Position numbers and translations under genes: made by a program
In this document: piece by piece, positions 4,402 to 19,816 of the stretch
Layout of the letters: the number at the start of each line of letters is the position of its first letter
Numbering within the stretch: position 1 is the stretch's first letter
Notes under the pieces: model-generated
Told to the model about the DNA's origin: nothing
The model's database searches: none
What the model saw: the letters and a program-made list of their open reading frames with translations, nothing else
IMG/VR virus record: IMGVR_UViG_3300008110_008300
Span: 3,145-23,596 of that record
Direction: 5' to 3' (one strand)
Origin: a virus
DNA length: 20,452 nucleotides

Positions 4402-4866
4402 ATGAGTAACCTAGAGAAACATGCCAAGTTAGAATTCAAGGCTGCAGGTTGGTTAGATGATGATGGTAATTACATTGATGAAATGCAAGAGGCTGTATGC
4501 CGCCATGTACTGGCCTTGTTAGATGTATTCTCAGCCGAAGGCCATTCAGGCTCATCAGCACCATATACAGTTGACCTATTTAAGAAACTGGCTATGTTTG
4601 AACCAGTTGTACCATTGACAGGTGAAGACTGGGAATGGCATGAGGCAAGTGAAGGTGTATTTCAGAACATTAGGTGTTCGCATGTATTTAAACAGGAAGA
4701 TAGATTTGATGGACAGGCATATGATATTGACGGCAAAATCTTTTGGGAATGGTACACCGATGAAAATGGTGAAGCAAGCAAATCGTACTTTACCGGCAGA
4801 GACAGTTGCGTTCCTATTACTTTCCCGTATACACCTGTTAGGACCTATGAGGAATATAAAGAATGA
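4402..4866 (+). CDS. Conserved phage protein, 154 aa
   Basis: The middle contains a signature of a frequent phage family: LLDVFSAEGHSGSSAPYTV, then LFKKLAMFEPVVPLTGEDWEW, then QNIRCSHVFK and QAYDIDGKIFW, ending RDSCVPITFPYTP. Function is unknown. The ATG follows AGGA, and the TGA overlaps the next start (ATGA). Length and motif order look complete. Confidence 0.85.
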   Translation: MSNLEKHAKLEFKAAGWLDDDGNYIDEMQEAVCRHVLALLDVFSAEGHSGSSAPYTVDLFKKLAMFEPVVPLTGEDWEWHEASEGVFQNIRCSHVFKQEDRFDGQAYDIDGKIFWEWYTDENGEASKSYFTGRDSCVPITFPYTPVRTYEEYKE

Positions 4867-14536: not shown

Positions 14537-14980
14537 ATGTTACATTTAATAGAATCATTGACCGATAAGTTTTTTGAATTGATTTATCAAGACCCCGTTA
14601 GGCCTAATGTGCCTCATGTTGACCGCCTTGGCGCCAACAAGGATATTTTCGTGTTTCGGGATGAAGATGATAAAGTCAAAGCTATTACATGCGTGAGCTA
14701 TCAAAGTAGCATTCCAACTAAAGAATCGGAATTGTTTGAAACTACAGATAGTCCAAGTATTGCTGTATTTTATACAATTTGGTCTTATGTACCTGGCGCT
14801 GGTCGTGCTTTGATTTTTGATGCGGTTCGCCATATCAAAGAAACACGACCAGAAATTACAAGATTCATAACATTGAGTCCTAAAACAGAAATGGCAAAGC
14901 GCTTTCACACAAAGAATGGCGCCGGTGTTTATCGTGAAAACGATGAAACGGTTAACTACGAGTATGAGGAAATAGCCTAA
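14537..14980 (+). CDS. GNAT-like acetyltransferase-fold protein
   Basis: The 147-residue product has a strand-helix order like GNAT enzymes: FVFRDEDDKVKAITCVSY (strands), AVFYTIWSYVPGAGRALIFDAVRHIKE (a degenerate acetyl-CoA loop, PGAGRAL, before a helix) and AKRFHTKNGAGVYRENDETVNYEY (C-terminal motif). The loop departs from the Q/RxxGxG consensus. No ribosome site is seen; a TATAAT lies 10 nt before the ATG with no -35 partner. Function is uncertain. Confidence 0.5.
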   Translation: MLHLIESLTDKFFELIYQDPVRPNVPHVDRLGANKDIFVFRDEDDKVKAITCVSYQSSIPTKESELFETTDSPSIAVFYTIWSYVPGAGRALIFDAVRHIKETRPEITRFITLSPKTEMAKRFHTKNGAGVYRENDETVNYEYEEIA

Positions 14981-15009: not shown

Positions 15010-15038
15010 TTGACAAATACTAAATAATAAAGTATAAT
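15010..15038 (+). promoter_or_regulatory. Strong sigma70-type promoter of the tRNA operon
   Basis: TTGACA (15010-15015), a 17-bp spacer and TATAAT (15033-15038): both boxes are perfect. Transcription should begin at about 15045, at or next to the ATG of the leader ORF. Confidence 0.9.
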
Positions 15039-15044
15039 ACAAAC

Positions 15045-15173
15045 ATGATGCAAAATTTTAAACTCTCATCGATAACGCTAAGTGCTATGTCACCGACATG
15101 GCAGGCCAACTATCGCTGCGAGAATCATGGCTTCATTGGAGCATCAAAGGATCCAGCAGAGGTTTGTGTTTAG
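15045..15173 (+). CDS. Possible leader peptide, 42 aa
   Basis: A frame of 42 codons (MMQNFKLSSITLSAMSPTWQ ... ENHGFIGASKDPAEVCV) lies between the tRNA promoter and its terminator. It begins at the predicted transcription start, so translation would be leaderless. Its final codons GAG GTT TGT GTT TAG are the 5' strand of the antiterminator helix. The RNA is also folded internally (GCTATGTC/GACATGGC; CGATA/TATCG). It may be a regulatory leader ORF or simply a structured RNA. Confidence 0.45.
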   Translation: MMQNFKLSSITLSAMSPTWQANYRCENHGFIGASKDPAEVCV

Positions 15174-15234
15174 ACAAATTAGTAAAATAGTTTTTTAATC
15201 ACAAACCTCAGACCTAAAAAATCTGAGGTTTTTT
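15159..15234 (+). terminator. Attenuator: antiterminator and terminator hairpins
   Basis: GAGGTTTGTG (15159-15168) can pair with CACAAACCTC (15200-15209), 10 bp. AAACCTCAGA (15203-15212) can pair with TCTGAGGTTT (15222-15231), 10 bp, followed by a T-run to 15234. The two helices share 15203-15209 and exclude each other. The second is a standard intrinsic terminator placed before the tRNA genes. Confidence 0.8.
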
Positions 15235-15256
15235 GTTTTGGGCATCGTCCCTTCTA

Positions 15257-15282
15257 GTTCTTTAAAAATTTGTAGAGTTAAT
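15257..15282 (+). promoter_or_regulatory. boxA-like element plus pre-tRNA repeat, copy 1
   Basis: GTTCTTTAAAA (15257-15267) matches the E. coli rRNA boxA core GCTCTTTAACA at 9 of 11 positions. It runs into AAAAATTTGTAGAGTTAAT (15264-15282), which ends 4 nt before tRNA-Gln and recurs before tRNA-Glu and, inverted, before tRNA-Arg. A Nus-dependent antitermination role is inferred. Confidence 0.55.
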
Positions 15283-15286
15283 ATAT

Positions 15287-15360
15287 TCCCGAATGGTGTA
15301 GTGGTAGCACAGCAGACTTTGACTCTGTTAGTATAAGTTCGATTCTTATTTCGGGTGCCA
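15287..15360 (+). tRNA. tRNA-Gln (TTG)
   Basis: Anticodon arm GCAGA-CTTTGAC-TCTGT; T arm ATAAG-TTCGATT-CTTAT; acceptor TCCCGAA with TTCGGGT (a U-U pair at 1-72); CCA encoded. It is the first tRNA after the attenuator. Confidence 0.9.
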
Positions 15361-15476
15361 TATAGAAGTATTTTTAGTATAAGACAAAGCGAAAGAAGAA
15401 ACCTAATCGGTGCACCGATGAAAGTTTCAGAGTTAAATCTCCTTCTATGCCTGCATTTGAAAGTGCTTCTATATGG
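15358..15476 (+). ncRNA. Structured spacer RNA between tRNA-Gln and tRNA-Ser
   Basis: CCATATAGAAG (15358-15368, starting in the CCA of tRNA-Gln) pairs perfectly with CTTCTATATGG (15466-15476, ending in the first bases of tRNA-Ser). Inside are the palindrome ATCGGTGCACCGAT and a GAAAC/GTTTC helix. It may be a processing stem or an independent stable RNA. Confidence 0.5.
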
Positions 15477-15562
15477 AAACGTGGTCGAGTGGTCTATGGC
15501 TCTAGTCTTGAAAACTAGCGATTCGAAAGGGTCCGTGAGTTCGAATCTCACCGTTTCCTCCA
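15475..15562 (+). tRNA. tRNA-Ser (TGA)
   Basis: Class II tRNA with a long variable arm. Acceptor GGAAACG/CGTTTCC; anticodon stem CTAGT/ACTAG around CTTGAAA; CCA encoded. Confidence 0.92.
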
Positions 15563-15578
15563 ATTTTTAGGAGCTCTT

Positions 15579-15755
15579 ATGAATGAAGATTTGGTTTATC
15601 GTTTAAGAAAACGTGCTGAAATTCGCAGACAAATTCCAACAAGAAAGTCTGTGCAAGAAAATGCACCAGATAGAATTGCAGATTTGTTAGAAGAAGCTGC
15701 CAACAGAATAGAAGAATTGGAGAGTGGGCAGGATGGTAATGCAGCAGATTGCTAA
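15579..15755 (+). CDS. Small phage protein overlapping tRNA-Ser (GCT), 58 aa
   Basis: A strong ribosome site (TAGGAG) precedes the ATG. The product begins NEDLVYRLRKRAEIRRQIPT and continues RKSVQENAPDRIADLLEEAANRIEELE, a pattern of a widespread small phage protein of unknown function. Its last 12 codons lie inside the 5' half of the tRNA-Ser gene, and the TAA stop falls in the tRNA anticodon loop. Either the tail was created by the tRNA sequence or the tRNA was inserted there. Confidence 0.75.
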   Translation: MNEDLVYRLRKRAEIRRQIPTRKSVQENAPDRIADLLEEAANRIEELESGQDGNAADC

Positions 15756-15807
15756 TCTGTCATCGGATTAAACCGGTGAGTGGGTTCGATTCCCACACTC
15801 TCCGCCA
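15719..15807 (+). tRNA. tRNA-Ser (GCT)
   Basis: Acceptor GGAGAGT/ACTCTCC; anticodon arm GCAGA-TTGCTAA-TCTGT; long variable arm; CCA encoded. The first 37 nt also code for the end of a small protein. Confidence 0.92.
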
Positions 15808-15809
15808 AT

Positions 15810-15886
15810 GTAGGTGTGTCGCTGAATGGTCAGGCTACGGATTGCAAATCCGTTTTATGCAGGTTCGAGTCCTGTCACCTACTCCA
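15810..15886 (+). tRNA. tRNA-Cys (GCA)
   Basis: Acceptor GTAGGTG/CACCTAC; anticodon arm ACGGA-TTGCAAA-TCCGT; T arm GCAGG-TTCGAGT-CCTGT; CCA encoded. Confidence 0.9.
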
Positions 15887-15899
15887 TTTGAAAACAAAA

Positions 15900-15925
15900 G
15901 TACTGTCGTTTAAAAACAACAGTAC
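15900..15925 (+). repeat. Inverted repeat before the second tRNA promoter
   Basis: GTACTGT (15900-15906) pairs with ACAGTAC (15919-15925). The inner 18 nt at 15904-15921 (TGTCGTT TAAAAA CAACA) resemble a degenerate copy of the 18-bp site of the other promoters and lie 15 nt before the -35, as at site 4. No T-run follows. Confidence 0.45.
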
Positions 15926-15936
15926 AAAATAAGTTG

Positions 15937-15964
15937 TTGACAAATTGTGTGGTTCATGTATAAT
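15937..15964 (+). promoter_or_regulatory. Second sigma70-type promoter in the tRNA cluster
   Basis: TTGACA (15937-15942), a 16-bp spacer and TATAAT (15959-15964). It should restart transcription before tRNA-Glu, beyond the first attenuated segment. Confidence 0.9.
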
Positions 15965-15976
15965 ACACACATGTTA

Positions 15977-15998
15977 TTTAAAAAGTTGTAGAGTTAAT
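15977..15998 (+). repeat. Pre-tRNA repeat, copy 2
   Basis: The 22 nt match 15261-15282 at 21 positions (one T to G change) and end 4 nt before tRNA-Glu, exactly the spacing seen before tRNA-Gln. It lies in the leader transcribed from the promoter at 15937. Confidence 0.8.
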
Positions 15999-16002
15999 TT
16001 TT

Positions 16003-16077
16003 GCTCGGTTCGTCTATCGGTTAGGACGCTGCCCTTTCAAGGCGGAAAGACCAGTTCGATTCTGGTACCGAGTACCA
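16003..16077 (+). tRNA. tRNA-Glu (TTC)
   Basis: Acceptor GCTCGGT/ACCGAGT; anticodon arm CTGCC-CTTTCAA-GGCGG; T arm CCAGT-TCGATTC-TGG type; CCA encoded. Confidence 0.9.
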
Positions 16078-16196
16078 TTTGTTTTGCTGACGTAAGCCAT
16101 GAGGGAAACGTCAACCTTGAGTAACTATGTACATAAACGGTAATGCTGCAGCTAAGTCCGTTGAGCATAGCAAATAGTGCGTCAGCAAAACAAATG
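16076..16196 (+). ncRNA. Structured RNA closed by a 17-bp stem
   Basis: CATTTGTTTTGCTGACG (16076-16092) is perfectly complementary to CGTCAGCAAAACAAATG (16180-16196). The enclosed 87 nt contain CTATG/CATAG and AACGG/CCGTT helices around GCTGCAGC. The 5' strand can alternatively pair with an internal ACGTCA (16108-16113), so two folds compete. It fills the gap between tRNA-Glu and tRNA-Lys. The class is unknown. Confidence 0.6.
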
Positions 16197-16203
16197 GTTG
16201 TTT

Positions 16204-16278
16204 GGAGGCATAACTTAACGGCTAAAGTAACTGGCTTTTAACCAGTAAATCAGAGTTCGATTCTCTGTGCCTCTACCA
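16204..16278 (+). tRNA. tRNA-Lys (TTT)
   Basis: Acceptor GGAGGCA/TGCCTCT; anticodon arm ACTGG-CTTTTAA-CCAGT; T arm CAGAG-TTCGATT-CTCTG; CCA encoded. Confidence 0.92.
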
Positions 16279-16287
16279 GTAGAATTT

Positions 16288-16372
16288 GGAGATGCCGCCG
16301 TAATGGTATGGCAGGAGACTGTAAATCTTCCGACTTAGGTCACAATAGGTTCGATCCCTATCATCTCCACCA
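16288..16372 (+). tRNA. tRNA-Tyr (GTA)
   Basis: Acceptor GGAGATG/CATCTCC; anticodon arm GGAGA-CTGTAAA-TCTTC; long variable arm; CCA encoded. Confidence 0.92.
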
Positions 16373-16564
16373 AGTCCCGTTACTACTTTCGTAAAAGTAG
16401 CGTTTGATTAGCGATAGAGATCCGGTGGCAGAAAACCGTTAGCGGAGTAATCCTGAATCTGATAGGCAGTATCTCTCTGCACACAGACGTTAGAATAAAA
16501 GAGATGGACAGAGTAACTGCTCAATTAAGGGCTTGTGTGGAAACAAGTAGCTTATCCTAATTTA
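16373..16564 (+). ncRNA. Inter-tRNA structured RNA, copy A
   Basis: The 192-nt gap between tRNA-Tyr and tRNA-Asp has no ORF. It contains a CTACTTT/AAAGTAG hairpin (16383-16400), AGAGAT/ATCTCT pairing, a GATA/TATC hairpin (16461-16473) and a CTTGT/ACAAG hairpin. It shares ordered motifs with the gap at 17207-17410 (copy B), including ACTACT-N6-AAAGTAGCGTT. It resembles in position the stable RNAs encoded within the T4 tRNA cluster. Confidence 0.6.
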
Positions 16565-16639
16565 GGTTTCAAAGTGTTCACGGACGCACGCTAGCTTGTC
16601 ACGCTAGAAGAAGGGGATCGTTACCCCTTGAGACCGCCA
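16565..16639 (+). tRNA. tRNA-Asp (GTC), divergent T loop
   Basis: Acceptor GGTTTCA/TGAGACC; D arm GTGT/GCAC; anticodon arm CTAGC-TTGTCAC-GCTAG; T arm AGGGG-ATCGTTA-CCCCT, with A instead of T at position 54; CCA encoded. It is easily missed because of the unusual T loop. Confidence 0.85.
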
Positions 16640-16648
16640 AGTTTTTAT

Positions 16649-16723
16649 TCCTTAATAGCTCAGAGGTAGAGCAAACGGCTGTTAACCGTTAGGTCCGTGG
16701 TTCGACCCCACGTTAAGGAGCCA
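16649..16723 (+). tRNA. tRNA-Asn (GTT)
   Basis: Acceptor TCCTTAA/TTAAGGA; anticodon arm AACGG-CTGTTAA-CCGTT; CCA encoded. Confidence 0.92.
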
Positions 16724-16727
16724 ATAT

Positions 16728-16804
16728 GGGGACGTGATGGAATTGGTATACGTGTTGGTCTTAGAAGCCAAATTTTGTGAGTTCGAGTCTCACCGTCCCC
16801 ACCA
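16728..16804 (+). tRNA. tRNA-Leu (TAG) with short variable loop
   Basis: Acceptor GGGGACG/CGTCCCC; anticodon arm TTGGT-CTTAGAA-GCCAA; T arm GTGAG-TTCGAGT-CTCAC; CCA encoded. Only five bases (ATTTT) separate the anticodon and T stems, whereas bacterial tRNA-Leu normally has a long variable arm. Confidence 0.88.
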
Positions 16805-16808
16805 ATTC

Positions 16809-16882
16809 GCCCTTTTAGTATAATGGTATTACGCCTGTTTTGTAATCAGGTTACGGCAGTTCGATTCTGTCAAGGGGCACCA
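16809..16882 (+). tRNA. tRNA-Thr (TGT)
   Basis: Acceptor GCCCTTT/AAGGGGC; anticodon loop TTTGTAA in a stem with CCTG/CAGG; CCA encoded. Confidence 0.9.
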
Positions 16883-16890
16883 ATTTTATT

Positions 16891-16967
<77 letters not shown>

Positions 16968-16971
16968 ATTC

Positions 16972-17046
16972 GGGGGATTAGTGATAATGGGAGCACATGT
17001 GCTTTGCAAGCATGAAGTAGGAGTTCGATTCTCCTATCCTCCACCA
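16972..17046 (+). tRNA. tRNA-Ala (TGC)
   Basis: Acceptor GGGGGAT/ATCCTCC; anticodon arm TGTGC-TTTGCAA-GCATG; CCA encoded. Confidence 0.92.
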
Positions 17047-17050
17047 TTCA

Positions 17051-17125
17051 GGTTCAGTAGCACAGCGGTAGTGCAATTGCTTCATACGCAATAGGTCGTT
17101 GGCTCGAATCCAACCTGAACCACCA
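17051..17125 (+). tRNA. tRNA with CAT anticodon (Met or Ile2)
   Basis: Acceptor GGTTCAG/CTGAACC is fully paired, so it is not an initiator; anticodon arm ATTGC-TTCATAC-GCAAT; CCA encoded. Elongator Met and lysidine-modified Ile cannot be separated here. Confidence 0.9.
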
Positions 17126-17131
17126 AGTTAC

Positions 17132-17206
17132 GGGCGATTAGTAAAATGAATATTACACAAGGCTACGAACCTTGAAGTGGGAGTTTGATTCTCTCATCGC
17201 CCTCCA
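17132..17206 (+). tRNA. tRNA-Arg (ACG)
   Basis: Acceptor GGGCGAT/ATCGCCC; anticodon arm CAAGG-CTACGAA-CCTTG; T loop TTTGATT; CCA encoded. The A34 would need host TadA to read CGC/CGA. Confidence 0.9.
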
Positions 17207-17410
17207 GAACCAGCCGAGGTAACGCTTGGCTACTGTGACACGCAGGAAGTGAAGTGAGTTCGTTACTCAAGTGTGGTACTACTCTTACCAAAGTAGCGTT
17301 GGCAATACGAGAATTCTTTTTGGTCGGGAAGCGGGTGGAAGGTACGTGTGGGGGTTATGATAGCGTCATATCTCGCTGTACTATAATTACCGCCGCAGAA
17401 AGAAAGCAAT
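17207..17410 (+). ncRNA. Inter-tRNA structured RNA, copy B
   Basis: The 204-nt gap between tRNA-Arg and tRNA-Ile has no convincing gene. It shares with copy A the block ACTACT-N6-AAAGTAGCGTT (17278-17300) and a GATA...TATCTC.CTG.AC block (17359-17381). It can form CGAGA/TCTCG where copy A forms AGAGAT/ATCTCT, a compensated helix. AGCC/GGCT and TGAG/CTCA hairpins are near its start. Confidence 0.6.
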
Positions 17411-17485
17411 GCCGTTGTAGCTCAGAGGAAGAGCATTCGCTTGATAAGCGAAAGGCCGACATTTCGAAATTGTCCAACGGTACCA
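17411..17485 (+). tRNA. tRNA-Ile (GAT)
   Basis: Acceptor GCCGTTG/CAACGGT; anticodon arm TTCGC-TTGATAA-GCGAA; CCA encoded. The T stem is imperfect (GACA/TGTC around TTTCGAAAT). Confidence 0.88.
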
Positions 17486-17490
17486 ATTTT

Positions 17491-17564
17491 ATCTCGCTGG
17501 TGTAATGGCAGCATCACGGTCTCCAAAACCGTTGGTCGGGGTTCGAGTCCCTGGCGGGGTGCCA
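17491..17564 (+). tRNA. tRNA-Trp (CCA)
   Basis: Acceptor ATCTCGC/GCGGGGT; anticodon loop CTCCAAA in an ACGGT/ACCGT stem; T arm CGGGG-TTCGAGT-CCCTG; CCA encoded. Confidence 0.88.
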
Positions 17565-17583
17565 AGTTTTAAAGGTTGTCAAT

Positions 17584-18072
17584 ATGAAAAAATTCGATAT
17601 AGATGAAGTCAAACAGTTCCTTGCAAAACAAGGACCAAACACCAAAGTATATCTTGGTGCTGATTCGGAAAGAATCAGAGTAAATGAAGTTTGGTATGCG
17701 GACTATGCTCTAGCAGTTGTAGTTCATATTGATGGTTGTCATGGCTGTAAGATTTTCGGTTTTGTTGACCGTGAATTGGATTACGACCATAAGAAAAGTA
17801 AACCTGCTATGCGTCTAATGACAGAAGTGTATAAGGTTTCAGAATTGTTCCAATCACTACAGGATGTGTTGGAAGATTTTCATGTAGAAGTTCATTTGGA
17901 CTTAAACAAGTCAGATGAGTTTGGTAGTTCTTGTGTTGTTCAGCAAGCAATTGGTTATATCAAAGGTACATGTAATATGACACCGATGGTTAAACCTGAT
18001 GCGCCTGCGGCTTCATTCTGTGCAGACCGGTTAAAACGGATTCTAGCAGAACAGGAATTGTCAACTATATAA
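17584..18072 (+). CDS. YkuK-like RNase H-fold protein (DUF458)
   Basis: The 162-residue product has KVYLGADSERI (first acidic residue D27), an RLMTEVYKVSE helix (E81), EVHLDLN (D106) and a C-terminal MVKPDAPAASFCADRLKRIL motif, all features of the YkuK/DUF458 family, which adopts an RNase H-like fold. Family function is not established; RNA or RNA-DNA processing is plausible. AAAGG precedes the ATG. It is the only full-length protein gene between tRNA genes (Trp and Gly), so a link with RNA maturation is tempting but unproven. Confidence 0.82.
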   Translation: MKKFDIDEVKQFLAKQGPNTKVYLGADSERIRVNEVWYADYALAVVVHIDGCHGCKIFGFVDRELDYDHKKSKPAMRLMTEVYKVSELFQSLQDVLEDFHVEVHLDLNKSDEFGSSCVVQQAIGYIKGTCNMTPMVKPDAPAASFCADRLKRILAEQELSTI

Positions 18073-18078
18073 AAATAT

Positions 18079-18152
18079 GCGGGATTAGTTTAGTGGTAAA
18101 ACGGCAGTCTTCCAAACTTCAGTTATCGGTTCGATTCCGATATCCCGCTCCA
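18079..18152 (+). tRNA. tRNA-Gly (TCC)
   Basis: Acceptor GCGGGAT/ATCCCGC; anticodon loop CTTCCAA; T arm ATCGG-TTCGATT-CCGAT; CCA encoded. The anticodon stem has one C-T mismatch. Confidence 0.9.
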
Positions 18153-18158
18153 GTTTAT

Positions 18159-18233
18159 GCAGTTGTTAGTTTAGTGGCAAAACCTCGGGTTGTGATTCCG
18201 ATATCAAGGGTTCGATTCCCTTACTTCTGCCCA
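18159..18233 (+). tRNA. tRNA-His (GTG)
   Basis: Anticodon arm TCGGG-TTGTGAT-TCCGA; T arm AAGGG-TTCGATT-CCCTT; the extra G at -1 pairs with C73; CCA encoded. The acceptor stem has two adjacent U-U mismatches. Confidence 0.87.
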
Positions 18234-18236
18234 TTT

Positions 18237-18311
18237 GCATCGTTAGCTCAGCGGTAGAGCAGCGCCCTTACAAGGCGAAGGTCAAAAGTTCAATCCTTTT
18301 ACGATGTACCA
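18237..18311 (+). tRNA. tRNA-Val (TAC)
   Basis: Acceptor GCATCGT/ACGATGT; anticodon loop CTTACAA with GCGCC/GGCGA type stem; CCA encoded. Confidence 0.92.
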
Positions 18312-18313
18312 AT

Positions 18314-18389
18314 ACCAATTTAGCTGATGTGGTCATAGCAGCGGTCTGAAGAACCGATGAAAGTGGTTCGATTCCACTAGTTGGTACCA
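18314..18389 (+). tRNA. tRNA-Phe (GAA)
   Basis: Acceptor ACCAATT/AGTTGGT; anticodon loop CTGAAGA in a CGGT/ACCG stem; T arm AGTGG-TTCGATT-CCACT; CCA encoded. Confidence 0.9.
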
Positions 18390-18393
18390 ATTT

Positions 18394-18476
18394 GCGATTG
18401 TGGTGGAATGGTATACACAGCAGACTTAAAATCTGCCGCCTTGTGCATGAGGGTTCGAATCTCTCCAGTCGCACCA
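18394..18476 (+). tRNA. tRNA-Leu (TAA)
   Basis: Acceptor GCGATTG/CAGTCGC; anticodon arm GCAGA-CTTAAAA-TCTGC; longer variable arm than the TAG isoacceptor; CCA encoded. Confidence 0.92.
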
Positions 18477-18477
18477 A

Positions 18478-18496
18478 ATTAACTCTACAAATTTTT
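18478..18496 (-). repeat. Pre-tRNA repeat, inverted copy 3
   Basis: The 19 nt are the exact reverse complement of 15264-15282 (AAAAATTTGTAGAGTTAAT) and end directly at the first base of tRNA-Arg (TCT). In one transcript it could pair with either of the two forward copies. Confidence 0.8.
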
Positions 18497-18571
18497 CTGG
18501 CCTTAGTATAATGGATAATACAGTTGCCTTCTAAGCAATCAATACAGGTTCGATTCCTGTAGGCCGGACCA
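18497..18571 (+). tRNA. tRNA-Arg (TCT)
   Basis: Acceptor CTGGCCT/AGGCCGG; anticodon arm GTTGC-CTTCTAA-GCAAT; T arm ACAGG-TTCGATT-CCTGT; CCA encoded. Confidence 0.92.
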
Positions 18572-18576
18572 AATAC

Positions 18577-18652
18577 ACGACCGTGGCCAAATGGTTAAGG
18601 CAGCAAACTCATAATTTGTTGATTGCAGGTTCAAGTCCTGCCGGTTGTACCA
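18577..18652 (+). tRNA. tRNA with CAT anticodon (Ile2 or Met)
   Basis: Acceptor ACGACCG/CGGTTGT; anticodon loop CTCATAA in a CAAA/TTTG stem; T arm GCAGG-TTCAAGT-CCTGC; CCA encoded. It is the third CAT tRNA in the window. Loop and T loop resemble E. coli tRNA-Ile2, but Met is not excluded. The reverse-strand HNH gene ends inside it. Confidence 0.88.
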
Positions 18653-19090: not shown

Positions 19091-19816
19091 ATGCTTGTGA
19101 AAAACCTTGTCTTATCAATTCTACTGTTAACAACAAACGCCTTTAGTATGAGCCTTACTGCTCATAGTTGGTTGGTTGCGGATGGTGATGGTAAAATTAT
19201 TCAAAGTGAAAATGAACAAGAACAAAGGTCGATAGCATCTATCACTAAAATTATGACTGCAATGGTCATAATCGATGCAGGCCAAAATCCAAAAGAAAAG
19301 ATAGGAAACTTTACAAGAGAGCAACATATACAATTGGCTCTTGTAAAGTCGAGCAATGAATCGGCTATTCTTTTATGTGATAAGTATCCTGGCGGTAAAA
19401 CGAGTTGTATTAGAGATATGAATTCTAAAGCTGTTGCACTTAATATGCCTAACACCAGGTTTGTTGAGGCATCAGGTTTAAGTCCAATGAATATTAGTAC
19501 GGGAAAAGATTTGATTGAATTGGTGCTTGCTGCAAGTTACTACCCTGAGATTGTGCAAGCAAGTAGTACACCACAAATAAAGATTCAAATTAAAAAGCAA
19601 TGGTTCATTTTCAATAACACAAATCCAATTATTGGTAAACGCCACAGGTTCATAGTAAGTAAAACGGGATTAACAAATGCGGCCGGTGGCTGTATCGTAA
19701 TGTTATTAGAGACAGACGTTGGCCGCAGACTTGTTGTGGTACTCGGTTCTAAGAATACTAGAACACGAATACCAGAAGCTGAGTTTATTGCTTTACAGAA
19801 TAATTGGCAACCATAA
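19091..19816 (+). CDS. Secreted S11-family D-Ala-D-Ala peptidase (PbpG-like)
   Basis: The 241-residue product has a signal peptide (VKNLVLSILLLTTNAFS) and the three penicillin-binding-protein motifs: SITK (50-53), SSN (87-89) and KTG (191-193), with TNAAGGC after KTG as in PbpG-type endopeptidases. S11 enzymes cut peptides in peptidoglycan in the periplasm. In a phage it may assist lysis or remodel the host wall. No ribosome site is present; TATAAT ends 2 nt before the ATG at 19091, so a GTG at 19097 is an alternative start. It is shorter than typical cellular enzymes, which carry extra C-terminal sequence. Confidence 0.88.
   Translation: MLVKNLVLSILLLTTNAFSMSLTAHSWLVADGDGKIIQSENEQEQRSIASITKIMTAMVIIDAGQNPKEKIGNFTREQHIQLALVKSSNESAILLCDKYPGGKTSCIRDMNSKAVALNMPNTRFVEASGLSPMNISTGKDLIELVLAASYYPEIVQASSTPQIKIQIKKQWFIFNNTNPIIGKRHRFIVSKTGLTNAAGGCIVMLLETDVGRRLVVVLGSKNTRTRIPEAEFIALQNNWQP

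Follow-up and report, generated by a model that had tools for sequence, protein, structure and literature searches.

The tRNA array of an uncultured phage is preceded by a short leader ORF that encodes all 20 amino acids in 42 codons, and by three RNA segments that can pair in two mutually exclusive ways. This arrangement is likely a ribosome-mediated transcription attenuator in which the leader peptide serves as a universal sensor of charged-tRNA supply. The case that the attenuator is real rests on strong comparative evidence, in the absence of RNA or expression data; its parts and their positions, conservation, amino acid composition, codon bias and covariation are shown below. The sequence studied (the window) comprises 20,452 nt of the 23.6-kb IMG/VR record IMGVR_UViG_3300008110_008300, positions 3,145-23,596, and all features of the element lie on its plus strand.

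Transcription of the leader is assigned to a promoter, P1 (15010-15038; TTGACA-17-TATAAT), that matches the consensus at 12 of 12 positions, with 10-12 matches in most relatives' leaders. The leader ORF (15045..15173) begins with AUGAUG and encodes the peptide MMQNFKLSSITLSAMSPTWQANYRCENHGFIGASKDPAEVCV. Its start codon lies only 6 nt past the -10 box, so the leader mRNA is probably leaderless. About half of all leaders start 6-7 nt past the -10 box and others roughly 30 nt past it; L095, L124, L126 and L136, with a GTG start after a 30-nt 5' UTR, are not leaderless. Segment 1, GAGGTTTGTG (15159-15168), occupies codons 39-42 and forms the 5' strand of the antiterminator. Its 3' strand, segment 2 (CACAAACCTC, 15200-15209), is a perfect 10-bp complement, and the helix is extended inward by 11 further pairs (15170-15198) that include the stop codon. 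Folded up to segment 2, the leader has a z-score of -4.3, and none of 200 shuffles was as stable. Segment 2 overlaps the 5' arm of an intrinsic terminator (15203..15235), in which AAACCTCAGA (15203-15212) pairs with TCTGAGGTTT (15222-15231) ahead of a T tract at 15229-15234, and which in isolation folds with -12.2 kcal/mol. The segments ahead of the array can thus pair either as 1:2, the antiterminator, or as 2:3, the terminator. The perfect promoter, the 42-codon ORF, the 10-bp antiterminator and the overlapping 10-bp terminator had all been proposed from sequence alone, and all held at the positions given here.

These features meet the criteria for attenuation: a short ORF follows a promoter and ends in or near the antiterminator strand, antiterminator and intrinsic terminator exclude each other, and the codons match the controlled product, with leader and tRNA arrays alike covering all 20 amino acids. 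The regulatory codons in leaders are mostly single rather than tandemly repeated. The original prediction had overlooked that the 42-aa leader contains all 20 amino acids, and it is this composition that narrows its 'translation status' to a definite hypothesis about what is sensed.

Downstream lie 24 tRNA genes, with every one of the 20 amino acids represented (15287..18652). The later tRNA genes are served by a second perfect promoter that lacks an attenuator (15937-15964; TTGACA-16-TATAAT), which leaves just four tRNAs, the leading Gln, Ser, Ser and Cys, with P1 as their sole promoter. The second promoter is followed by a six-codon ORF, ATG TTA TTT AAA AAG TTG TAG, and then by a boxA-like site, GTTATTTAAAAAGTT (15973-15987), the whole spanning 15937-15987. 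A gene for an RNase H-like protein (phrog_11311; 17584-18072) sits among the tRNA genes, and one for a D-alanyl-D-alanine carboxypeptidase (peptidase S11; 19091-19816) directly past them; elsewhere the window encodes a homologue of Tad3, which inhibits type I Thoeris defence (4402-4866; Pfam E 2e-34).

Relatives were collected without reference to what the leader encodes. The gene upstream of the leader (14537..14980), which specifies a 147-aa protein with a weak Pfam MCD match, served as a neutral bait in viral contigs, and the resulting loci were scanned for the three-segment pattern irrespective of any ORF. This produced about a dozen leaders, in each of which the ORF ending at segment 1 contained all 20 amino acids. 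Pattern searches of IMG/VR, equally blind to the ORF, looked for boxA with tRNA-Gln and for a terminator followed by boxA at varied spacings; a hold-out set came from separate pattern searches, also ORF-blind. For tests of composition the ORF was picked by position and length only. Three of the 107 distinct regions of the first set (L107, L185 and L230) have no leader, with terminator and boxA still there, and where the rule defined no ORF in the remaining regions, either the region is truncated or the stop codon falls just outside the rule. It had been proposed that relatives keeping the terminator but not the helix or the ORF would refute the attenuator; the opposite was found, in that relatives keep ORF, helix and terminator together. 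The leaders fall into at least eight groups without detectable peptide similarity, plus L023 and L024.

All eight large records tested encode the T4 major capsid protein gp23, from which we infer that the carriers, a large set of uncultured phages, are T4-like. A DNA comparison of 13 leader types with 50,697 phage records gave no match, and four cultured phages with tRNA arrays (GAP31, AhP_Mru1, Kremar and fGh-Ecl04) have no such leader before them. The sole match in bacterial genomes is a 4.4-kb contig, probably phage, in an alphaproteobacterial MAG.

The composition of the window's leader recurs throughout the collection. Among 81 distinct rule-defined leaders, 61, spanning 32-47 codons, contain 20 of 20 amino acids, 18 contain 19, one contains 18, and one runs off the end of its contig; in the hold-out set (n = 22) the counts for 20, 19 and 18 are 14, 7 and 1. 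Chance would give all 20 in 1.15% of cases under the leaders' pooled composition, or in 0.63% of length-matched windows of real phage proteins. Other short ORFs of the same loci reach 20 in only 17 of 3768 cases, nine of which are leaders that the rule had missed. Shared ancestry was considered as the cause and rejected, given at least eight dissimilar groups and compensation within groups. Seven of eight group representatives have all 20 amino acids, a binomial chance of about 2e-13 at 1.15% each (our own arithmetic), and in the two large groups 80% and 70% of real leaders have all 20, compared with 10% and 9.5% of column-shuffled chimeras, so that a residue lost at one site is regained at another position of that leader. 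Roughly one leader in four is short of one amino acid, and in leaders with 19 residue types no correspondence was seen between the missing amino acid and a gap in the tRNA array.

Codon choice extends this sampling to nearly all tRNA isoacceptor classes. Counting split boxes separately (Ser UCN/AGY, Leu CUN/UUR, Arg CGN/AGR, Ile AUY/AUA) gives 24 decoding classes, of which leaders cover a mean of 23.05, as against 18.25 with background codons; 32% of leaders include all 24, compared with 5% when the same peptides are written in background synonymous codons, and ATA is present in 82% rather than 41%. Codon shares are skewed relative to background for GAG (88% vs 24% of Glu), CGC (50% vs 11% of Arg), GCG (40% vs 9% of Ala) and ATA (42% vs 22% of Ile), and U-ending codons are avoided in four-codon boxes. 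Selective isoacceptor charging theory holds that how sensitively an attenuator responds depends on its codons (PMC1183508); that the chosen codons are the starvation-sensitive ones in the hosts is not established.

The antiterminator itself is maintained by compensatory change, the check that the original prediction had proposed. Across the 18 alignable leaders of family 1, the 1:2 helix is 94.6% paired, with double-sided changes at five antiterminator pairs, some of them outside the terminator arm; none of 500 shuffles paired as well, and slid partners reached 36-68%. All three segments can change in concert, as in L011, which has GAGGTTT/AAACCTC/GAGGTTT where the window has TAGGGGTTT/AAACCCCTA/TAGGGGTTT. 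Across families, segment 1 scores a mean of 25.3 with its own segment 2 and 17.8 with foreign ones. Its own segment 2 is the best partner in only 16 of 80 leaders because a GGGTTTTGTG core is common to segments 2, and pairwise covariation within one alignable family was therefore used instead.

Switching was modelled with the ribosome as a 28-nt mask. In nascent transcripts that end at segment 2, with the A site five or more codons before segment 1, the mean probability of the 1:2 helix is 0.86-0.96; it falls to 0.30 three codons before segment 1 and to 0 inside it. The helix forms in 90% of leaders in nascent RNA, and masking a ribosome at the stop codon yields the terminator in 99%. The predicted switch is complete in the window, where the antiterminator stands at 0.99 when the RNA is free or the ribosome stalled early and the terminator at 0.95 with a ribosome at the stop. 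The proposal that a ribosome at the stop codon yields the terminator and an earlier stall the antiterminator is thus supported, as a model prediction. When the full-length RNA is folded to equilibrium with no ribosome, the terminator is preferred in many leaders, partly through pairing of segment 1 with upstream sequence, and the outcome therefore hangs on kinetics; we rejected such folding as a sole test of switching, since it ignores the order of transcription and is misleading. The simple model is blind to residues whose codons fall within segment 1 or immediately ahead of it, leaving Val (codons 40 and 42) and largely Asp (codon 36) unsensed in the window, and the sensed zone holds 17.9 of 20 amino acids on average.

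Between the terminator and the first tRNA the window carries a boxA-like site, GTTCTTTAAAAATTT (15257..15271), that resembles the rrn antitermination site, matching the E. coli sequence at 13 of 15 positions, and that meets the rrn-type criterion of a boxA sequence ahead of stable RNA genes. The E. coli rrn boxA sequence itself occurs at a median of 7 sites per genome. The same interval holds an inverted repeat, GGGCATCGTCCC (15240..15251), with a conserved ATCG core that recurs in relatives' repeats such as GGAGCATCGACTCC and GGCCATCGTGCC; ATCG is present in 43 of 86 terminator-boxA intervals, compared with 14.5 by shuffling. Some relatives have an extra promoter between terminator and boxA, and where a promoter is present the repeat sits in its spacer. 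It may be an operator or a boxB-like hairpin. Wherever the available sequence reaches far enough, a tRNA array follows about 90-240 nt past the leader, with up to 28 tRNAs for up to 20 amino acids and usually Gln(UUG) first; Gln was required by only the first search pattern.

We propose the following mechanism, in which translation of the leader, termination, read-through, the response to tRNA loss as a signal and any benefit to the phage are inferred. Transcription would start at P1, with a ribosome translating the 42-codon leader behind RNA polymerase. Were this ribosome to reach the stop codon, segment 2 would pair with segment 3, the terminator would form, and no downstream tRNAs would be made from P1. 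Were a charged tRNA scarce, the ribosome would wait at almost any codon, the 1:2 helix would form and block the terminator, and polymerase would proceed into the array, where the boxA-like site would probably render it resistant to Rho; both Nus factor binding and Rho resistance are inferred. Putative triggers are starvation, decay of host tRNAs and tRNA-cutting defences. Since every amino acid and nearly every isoacceptor class is represented in the leader, losing almost any tRNA would switch on the replacement set. The idea that such an element tunes tRNA supply to translation status is supported, within the limits that only four tRNAs of the window rely on P1 alone and that there is no expression evidence.

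The trp, his, ilv and phe attenuators share with the phage leader an ORF, exclusive antiterminator and terminator helices, and a decision made by ribosome position (PMC1183508, PMC13236596). They differ in that their leaders carry repeated codons for only one or a few amino acids, and the genes they control encode biosynthetic enzymes or synthetases, whereas the phage leader samples all 20 and controls tRNA genes. The toiL (topAI) and whiB7 uORFs sense many kinds of ribosome stalling (PMC12121999), but neither is described as controlling tRNA genes, and toiL acts on translation initiation with Rho and no intrinsic terminator, and lacks Ala, Ser and Thr codons. A translational uORF of the toiL type was rejected as a description of the phage element, since such a uORF base-pairs to the ribosome binding site of the following gene, whereas here tRNA genes come next and segment 2 belongs to a terminator; a T-box riboswitch was likewise rejected, as Rfam at the gathering threshold found only tRNAs in the window. 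The rrn boxB-boxA leader also places a boxA-like sequence (GTTCTTTAAMAATT) before stable RNA genes, but the phage site sits past a regulated terminator and before phage tRNA genes. Phage tRNAs rescue infection from tRNA-cutting defences, and the clusters that do so are likewise replacement arrays (PMC10264068, PMC11555353); term searches of these two papers found no leader peptide or attenuation, and expression in SP15 is attributed to a strong promoter. We found neither an attenuated phage tRNA operon nor an all-amino-acid leader in the open-access papers searched, subscription journals and preprints not being covered.

Several alternative readings deserve consideration. One that remains possible reverses the default state: an untranslated leader would fold a protector helix between early codons, for example AAACCC, and segment 1, so that the array would open only when a ribosome translating the leader stalls. 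Segment 1 pairs with upstream leader sequence in 57% of leaders as free full-length RNA, and in the SLISHKPF family it pairs with codons near position 8, a protector-type pairing with early codons like that of the trp leader. AAACCC near codons 6-8 of L036, L124, L126 and relatives can pair with segment 1 and may be such a helix. Against this reading, the window has no protector helix, its free RNA forming 1:2 at 0.99, and 1:2 forms in nine-tenths of leaders in nascent RNA; it may still be that those leaders whose segment 1 pairs with early codons are off when untranslated.

A second alternative, which we consider unlikely, is a general sensor of translation stress, in which any slowing of ribosomes (by antibiotics, host shut-off or ribosome shortage) opens the array and composition matters little. 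Stalling at any early codon would indeed free segment 1, and the toiL and whiB7 uORFs answer several translation stresses (PMC12121999), but this reading predicts neither retention of all 20 amino acids, nor compensation within families, nor the unusual codons. Far less plausible is a functional small protein with a separate attenuator: motifs do recur within families (TWQA.YR, KHLPLNSGW, EYRT.NC.D), but at least eight dissimilar families share composition, length, an end near segment 1 and a place before tRNAs, and codon choice is skewed beyond what the peptide requires. A plain terminator insulating the array, with antiterminator and ORF coincidental, could explain the 3 of 107 regions that have terminator and boxA without a leader, but is virtually ruled out, because the comparative data contradict it already: covariation extends to pairs beyond the terminator arm, the ORF ends near segment 1, and the leader has its all-20 composition.

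The preferred reading, that of a leader peptide sensing charged-tRNA supply, can be taken further. On balance we lean towards a bolder version in which the element is a one-molecule detector for the loss of any tRNA, its leader kept by selection so as to include a codon for essentially every tRNA class; the evidence also tips, by a modest margin, towards the idea that destruction of any host tRNA, for example by an anticodon-nuclease defence, would lead the phage to deploy a complete set of spares. Known leader-peptide attenuators respond to one or few amino acids, and a leader that samples all 20 is the new aspect here: about 40 codons would suffice to monitor translation capacity in general. 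This reading predicts that tRNA loss induces phage tRNA arrays, and it would make the leader a ready-made universal reporter of tRNA starvation. If true, a one-molecule detector of tRNA loss would give the phage a counter-defence that is inducible and has a universal trigger, and it may offer a regulatory answer to the question of why phages carry whole tRNA sets, namely that these could be kept back for a time when some tRNA becomes scarce.
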